Assembly: GCA_018303365.1 (NCBI GenBank)
Contig: JAGVYI010000009.1
Span: 1 to 41,921 of the forward strand
Direction: 5' to 3'
Length of the DNA stretch: 41,921 nt
From: Candidatus Woesearchaeota archaeon
GTDB taxonomy: Archaea; Nanobdellota; Nanobdellia; SCGC-AAA011-G17; JACPNG01
This document shows, one piece after another, positions 18,391 through 23,105 of this stretch. Both the position numbers and the translations under genes were made by a program. Within the stretch, counting starts at the first letter, position 1. Every line of letters begins with the position of its first letter. The notes beneath the pieces were generated by a model that saw only the letters and a list, made by a program, of their open reading frames with translations, made no database searches and was not told the DNA's origin.

Positions 18391-18413
18391 ACCATGCACA
18401 AGTAAGATATATC
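18391..18413 (-). other. 3' arm of 23S processing stem
   Basis: Pairs with 21305-21327 over 23 positions including 3 G-U wobbles. Confidence 0.75.
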
Positions 18414-18424
18414 ATAACGAGTTG

Positions 18425-21300
<2,876 letters not shown>

Positions 21301-21304
21301 GTGG

Positions 21305-21327
21305 GATATATCTTACCTATGCACGGT
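21305..21327 (-). other. 5' arm of 23S processing stem
   Basis: gatatatcttacctatgcacggt; 12-bp perfect core gatatatcttac/gtaagatatatc. Confidence 0.75.
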
Positions 21328-21419
21328 CATGAAAAAAAATCATAACCCTTAACCCGCAACATTATGTTAGCGAGCCGCAGAGTGTCACAACAAATAATGT
21401 GATAAAAATGACAATGATA

Positions 21420-21527
21420 TGGACCCGTCGGGACTCTTCGATAAGCCACTAAAAAGGATGGCATTATTTTCGAACCCGAGGCCTCTGCCTTGCAAGGGCA
21501 GCGCTCTACCAACTGAGCTACGGGCCC
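21420..21527 (-). tRNA. tRNA-Ala (UGC) with a 35-nt intron in the T-loop (intron 21434-21468)
   Basis: GGGCCCG TA GCTC..GAGC G CTGCC CTTGCAA GGCAG AGGC TCGGG TTCGAA [AATAATGCCATCCTTTTTAGTGGCTTATCGAAGAG] T CCCGA CGGGTCC A; removing the bracket restores a canonical TTCGAAT loop. Confidence 0.88.
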
Positions 21528-21534
21528 ATAAAAA

Positions 21535-21566
21535 GAGTACGTGAACATCTACAGGATTGGTAGAGA
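21535..21566 (-). other. 3' arm of 16S processing stem (BHB-like)
   Basis: gagtacgtga (21535-21544) and ttggtagaga (21557-21566), each perfectly complementary to the 5' arm. Confidence 0.75.
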
Positions 21567-21570
21567 AAAA

Positions 21571-23045
<1,475 letters not shown>

Positions 23046-23073: not shown

Positions 23074-23105
23074 TCTCTACCAAAAAAACTGCTGGTCACG
23101 TACTC
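23074..23105 (-). other. 5' arm of 16S processing stem (BHB-like)
   Basis: tctctaccaa (23074-23083) and tcacgtactc (23096-23105), separated by 12 nt as on the other arm. Confidence 0.75.

Follow-up and report, generated by a model that had tools for sequence, protein, structure and literature searches.

A 35-nt insert in the tRNA-Ala(UGC) gene between the 16S and 23S rRNA genes of a Candidatus Woesearchaeota archaeon is very probably an archaeal bulge-helix-bulge (BHB) intron, which would be excised between tRNA positions 59 and 60 by the endonuclease EndA, the exons being ligated by RtcB. The gene was analysed in a window of 41,921 nucleotides (the whole stretch of DNA under study; contig JAGVYI010000009.1, forward strand). 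The intron is a non-canonical member of the known archaeal tRNA introns and no new system. As judged from genome sequences, introns at this T-loop site are a real and recurrent feature of the order and class of the host, extending beyond one genome.

The tRNA-Ala(UGC) gene and its insert

The following features were assigned (all on the minus strand):
18405..21313: archaeal 23S rRNA (Rfam)
21420..21527: tRNA-Ala(UGC) gene, located between 16S and 23S rRNA; 73 tRNA nucleotides and a probable 35-nt intron, CCA not encoded
21433..21436: 3′ bulge of 4 nt, GAGU, with predicted cleavage at GAG^U, 21434/21433 (homologue comparison)
21434..21468: probable intron between T-loop positions 59 and 60, sequence AATAATGCCATCCTTTTTAGTGGCTTATCGAAGAG, 35 nt (sequence, and homologues at the identical position)
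21437..21440: intron strand of the central helix, CGAA (relatives)
21441..21467: inner stem-loop of the intron, AUAA/UUAU, bulged U, GCCA/UGGC (sequence and folding)
21468..21470: 5′ bulge AAA, with predicted cleavage at AA^A, 21469/21468 (sequence and homologues)
21471..21474: exon strand of the 4-bp central helix, UUCG, positions 54-57 of the T-loop (in relatives, base 57 covaries with the intron base opposite)
21535..21568: putative trailer strand of the 16S processing stem, directly upstream of tRNA-Ala (folding)
21574..23045: archaeal 16S rRNA (Rfam)
23074..23105: putative leader strand of the 16S processing stem (folding)

Read on the minus strand from 21527 to 21420, the locus runs GGGCCCG..TTGCAA..TCGGG-TTCGAA, then the insert, then T-CCCGA-CGGGTCC-A. 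The insert is bordered by A59 (21469) on one side and U60 (21433) on the other, and the remainder of the tRNA is intact. The Rfam tRNA match (21471-21527, 42.3 bits) ends at the insert; ARAGORN called no tRNA on the unspliced locus and tRNA-Ala(tgc) on the sequence without the 35 nt. The original prediction had described a 35-nt insert at 21434-21468 in a minus-strand tRNA-Ala(UGC) of the rRNA spacer; its coordinates proved exact to the base, and the Rfam matches to 16S and 23S rRNA flank the gene as it had supposed. Since the insert lies at 59/60, it differs from a canonical intron at 37/38. A group I or group II intron was rejected, the insert measuring only 35 nt (versus hundreds) and having no Rfam match to a catalytic core.

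In the precursor, UUCG of the T-loop would pair with CGAA near the 3′ end of the intron and so displace the normal T-loop. EndA would then cut the 5′ bulge behind AA and the 3′ bulge behind GAG, and joining of the exons by RtcB would give the 7-nt T-loop UUCGAAU. Both RNase P and RNase Z recognise the T-arm, and the unspliced tRNA cannot adopt the normal elbow shape; for both reasons, splicing probably precedes, or at least accompanies, the trimming of the tRNA ends by these two enzymes.

The geometry of the window departs from a strict canonical BHB (3-nt bulge, 4-bp helix, 3-nt bulge) in its 3′ bulge of 4 nt instead of 3, which speaks against a BHB intron, as does the computed minimum-energy fold of the T-arm. 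In this non-BHB fold (-17.1 kcal/mol, versus -12.8 kcal/mol for the BHB fold), UUC pairs with GAG, and a 4x4 internal loop is formed. Nearest-neighbour folding programs penalise bulges. Because the minimum-energy fold differs, the BHB assignment in the window draws mainly on homologues, one of which (L052) adopts a BHB-like shape in its computed fold alone. A correctly placed TTCG helix together with a 4-bp inner helix arose in 236 of 200,000 shuffles of the insert; a chance BHB was rejected on the basis of the shuffles and the relatives.

T-loop introns in related genomes

Relatives' introns were collected by searching 99 genomes (the host's own and those of relatives) with the spacer and by a pattern search of 84,980 named species genomes. 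This comparison, which the original prediction had proposed for the spacer tRNAs of relatives, yielded 61 distinct T-loop introns (17-43 nt) at the identical site, that of the window included. Most are located in the rRNA spacer, with the 3′ end of 16S rRNA a short distance upstream, and a few lie in other tRNAs elsewhere, for example tRNA-Ala(CGC). The named relatives with such a gene are almost all Candidatus Woesearchaeota or Nanoarchaeota and include archaeon GW2011_AR15 (chromosome CP010425.1); judged by them, the host is a member of an order of Woesearchaeota/Nanoarchaeota type. Five of 62 candidate loci (L097, L107, L115, L142 and L144) were rejected as chance matches in bacteria with no tRNA-Ala at the site. 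Loci L099 and L127 are archaeal rRNA-spacer sequence on contigs labelled bacterial, which are probably misbinned.

The host assembly (702,038 bases, 22 contigs, 90.86% complete) is a draft that is probably derived from a metagenome, and an artefact of assembly or binning might be suspected on this account; the probability of this is practically nil, as independent genomes from many sites have the intron at the same place, among them a single-contig genome (G041) and the chromosome CP010425.1, and the suspicion is thereby already refuted.

Four pairs between T-loop positions 54-57 and the intron, together with an exact 3-nt 3′ bulge, were found in 51 of the 61 distinct introns, as compared with a mean of 1.3 and a maximum of 6 of 61 when the introns were shuffled. 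Position 57 of the T-loop is occupied by A or G, and the intron base opposite changes accordingly (A-U 34, G-C 12, G-U 5); none of 100,000 permutations attained as many Watson-Crick pairs. Pairing is less strict on the 5′ side, where 14/55 introns have no pair directly after the 3-nt 5′ bulge. After removal of the T-loop intron alone, a tRNA was called in 59/61 cases (38 as Ala), against 4/61 for the unspliced sequences, and many of the genes then called as other than Ala also carry anticodon-loop introns. The relatives, the covariation and the restored tRNA thus agree with the original prediction of a BHB-type intron at 59/60, the boundaries of which were exact.

The introns vary freely in length (17-43 nt) and inner sequence while keeping the helix at the splice sites, as is typical of introns. 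This argues against retention of the insert in the mature tRNA as an enlarged T-arm, a reading which the ability of the 35 nt to fold as a hairpin alone would favour. As the T-loop is required for the tRNA elbow and the joined flanks form a perfect T-loop, retention can hardly be credited, and excision as an intron is preferred.

A single U completes the T-loop at the intron end in 57/61 introns; the pattern by which many of them were retrieved required a T before CCCGA and left the bases of the intron helix unconstrained. A 4-nt 3′ bulge occurs in 4/61, namely in the window, in L075 and L084 (GAGU, as in the window) and in L071 (UAAU), so that the relaxed 4-nt bulge described in the original prediction is shared with relatives. 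A canonical 3-nt bulge is cut after its second nucleotide, and the bulge GAGU of the window might on this rule be cut one base earlier (GA^GU), still as a BHB intron. The resulting T-loop of 8 nt would violate a rule that nearly all tRNAs obey; this, the recurrence of GAGU in L075 and L084 and the single completing U make the earlier cut very improbable. The predicted cut therefore remains GAG^U.

Further introns were observed in the spacer tRNA-Ala genes of relatives, in the D-loop (L062, L071 and L077) or in the anticodon loop (L039, L055, L057, L063 and L078), sometimes two per gene. At L126 and L136 a T-loop insert seems to be present in more than one tRNA, so that such introns also occur outside the spacer tRNA-Ala.

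The tRNA set of the host genome

The other tRNA-Ala genes of the host genome are CGC and GGC. An intact second tRNA-Ala(UGC), which the original prediction had named as evidence to the contrary, was sought and not found in the 90.86%-complete genome, and the ∼9% of the genome that is missing could hold such a gene or a second EndA subunit. A search of 11 other intron-bearing genomes (95-100% complete) likewise gave no intact UGC copy. These results bear on the reading that the insert has killed the gene, leaving a tRNA pseudogene and decoding by another tRNA-Ala(UGC) or another alanine tRNA. Incompleteness of the genome and failure of the automatic tRNA finder to call the gene would suit a pseudogene; the intact remainder of the tRNA, the restriction of the other tRNA-Ala genes found to CGC and GGC, the maintenance of the split gene with compensating changes across many families and the result from the 11 near-complete genomes oppose it and make it most unlikely. 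With the gene taken as functional and spliced, its omission by a standard tRNA finder means that genomes of a large uncultured group may be annotated without tRNA-Ala(UGC).

Two partial matches on contig C17 suggested an extra tRNA-Ala, which was rejected on account of a GAU-type anticodon; this intron-bearing gene is probably tRNA-Ile. The locus (C17:49113-49230, minus strand, L242) seemingly contains two introns and escaped the Rfam search for tRNAs. Other inserts in the host genome include an intron in the D-arm of tRNA-Thr(CGU) (C16:22552-22639, L032), an intron on the 5′ side of the anticodon loop of tRNA-Thr(UGU) (C7:22047-22142, L029) and inserts in both the D-loop and the anticodon arm of a further tRNA (C13:51317-51437, L028). 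Several unusually placed introns besides that in the T-loop thus indicate that the splicing machinery of the host handles such substrates generally.

Splicing enzymes

One gene for EndA and one for the ligase RtcB were identified in the host genome. The catalytic residues of EndA, Tyr121, His131 and Lys162, were assigned by alignment to EndA of M. jannaschii and are invariant in an alignment of eight sequences. The best PDB match is the α chain of Nanoarchaeum equitans EndA (3iey, E 2.9e-41); the C-terminal Trp of the host enzyme aligns with the N. equitans and M. kandleri α chains, which is suggestive only. PF01974 matches were obtained in 92/99 genomes, and in all but one of these there was exactly one match, of α length.

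According to reviews, relaxed-motif introns are removed efficiently only by EndAs of the (αβ)2 and ε2 types, and the α′2 enzyme of A. fulgidus requires a strict 3-nt bulge (PMC6379350, PMC12397907). That one α-type EndA was found, relaxed cleavage being tied to (αβ)2 and ε2 enzymes (PMC6379350), is a further point against a BHB intron. Searches for a second EndA subunit in nine genomes (the host and eight of high quality) with PF01974 (E<=10), PF02778 and a profile of eight sequences gave only one α-length chain of ∼185 aa; in this the nine genomes differ from N. equitans, the EndA of which has a β subunit (NEQ261). As N. equitans β was retrieved from a single α query at 7e-13, a comparable β subunit would have been detected. 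Sequence comparison leaves two readings: an α-only enzyme that would tolerate these sites, or a β subunit too diverged to detect. Most of the T-loop intron sites offered to EndA have a canonical 3′ bulge. The combination of one apparent α-type gene with many non-canonical introns calls the requirement for (αβ)2 or ε2 enzymes into question, and the numerous natural variants of the recurrent site could serve to examine BHB recognition by EndA.

Distribution and history of the intron

Among the 44 genomes that have a spacer tRNA and for which 16S rRNA was usable, the T-loop intron is present in 26 and absent from 18, in a patchy manner on the 16S tree. At least eight changes (gain or loss) are forced by well-supported branches of this tree, and 11 are counted by parsimony. 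Of 119 good genomes in a sample of the phylum, 24 had the intron according to a strict pattern; many of the 24 belong to other orders of the host's class, and the reversed control gave 0 matches. An old site with repeated loss and repeated gain both fit these data.

Within the family of the window, four sampled genomes have a spacer tRNA without the T-loop intron; three of these (G008, G010 and G011) have an anticodon-loop intron instead, and G001 has no intron. Two others (G006 and G009) have no spacer tRNA. In these two genomes and in G074 (L066, L067 and L082) other sequence follows 16S rRNA and no spacer tRNA is nearby, the rRNA genes being probably unlinked. The intron-free spacer tRNA-Ala genes of family f7 (L054, L070, L073 and L080) and of G001 (L065) are of a clearly different sequence type, and look like replacements of the ancestral gene.

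Comparison with known systems and rRNA maturation

T-loop or T-arm intron sites in archaeal tRNAs have already been documented in general (PMC6379350, PMC12397907, PMC8450103, PMC11291895). A literature search, which took in the minority of subscription papers, gave no report of T-loop introns in spacer tRNAs of Woesearchaeota. Like the non-canonical BHB introns of Thermoproteales, Thaumarchaeota, ARMAN and Asgard Atabeyarchaeia, the insert is short and non-self-splicing, has a central helix with bulges and restores the tRNA when removed; it differs from them in that one T-loop site is repeatedly occupied in the rRNA-spacer tRNA-Ala(UGC) of Woesearchaeota-type archaea.

EndA of Haloferax cuts BHBs in rRNA processing stems, which are needed for mature rRNA (PMC7714728, PMC7038931). 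These 16S and 23S pre-rRNA stems of Haloferax and Sulfolobus (PMC7714728, PMC7038931) share enzyme, motif class and transcript with the present intron; there, however, the rRNA itself takes the place of the "intron" and is circularised, whereas here a 35-nt piece of tRNA would be removed. In the window, leader and trailer of 16S rRNA fold into a BHB-like structure with a central 4-bp helix, a 3-nt bulge on the trailer side and a longer bulge on the leader side. Folding of the 23S flanks gave a long helix at the mature ends and no assignable BHB. The claim of the original prediction that the intron makes rRNA maturation dependent on EndA is not supported as stated, because archaeal 16S and 23S stems are already cut by this enzyme and need it (PMC7714728, PMC7038931) and the 16S stem of the host is itself BHB-like; such dependence is not new.

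For Haloferax it has been proposed that the 16S and 23S precursors stay joined because their spacer tRNA is processed slowly (PMC7038931), and an intron in the spacer tRNA would be a natural way of slowing its processing. By analogy, the T-loop intron might serve as a timer of ribosome assembly, which a single-gene, α-type EndA would have to remove before RNase P and RNase Z could part the two precursors; we consider this unlikely. If it were true, EndA would control both the processing and the separation of the rRNAs through an α-type enzyme handling non-canonical introns, against the current rule. In N. equitans the rRNA genes are unlinked (PMC7038931), whereas tRNA-Ala of the host sits between 16S and 23S rRNA.

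The spacer also contains, at 21330-21385 on the minus strand and just upstream of 23S rRNA, a conserved hairpin, TGCARCTC...GGGTGAAGGA, which was likewise observed between tRNA-Ala and 23S rRNA in the spacers of most relatives.
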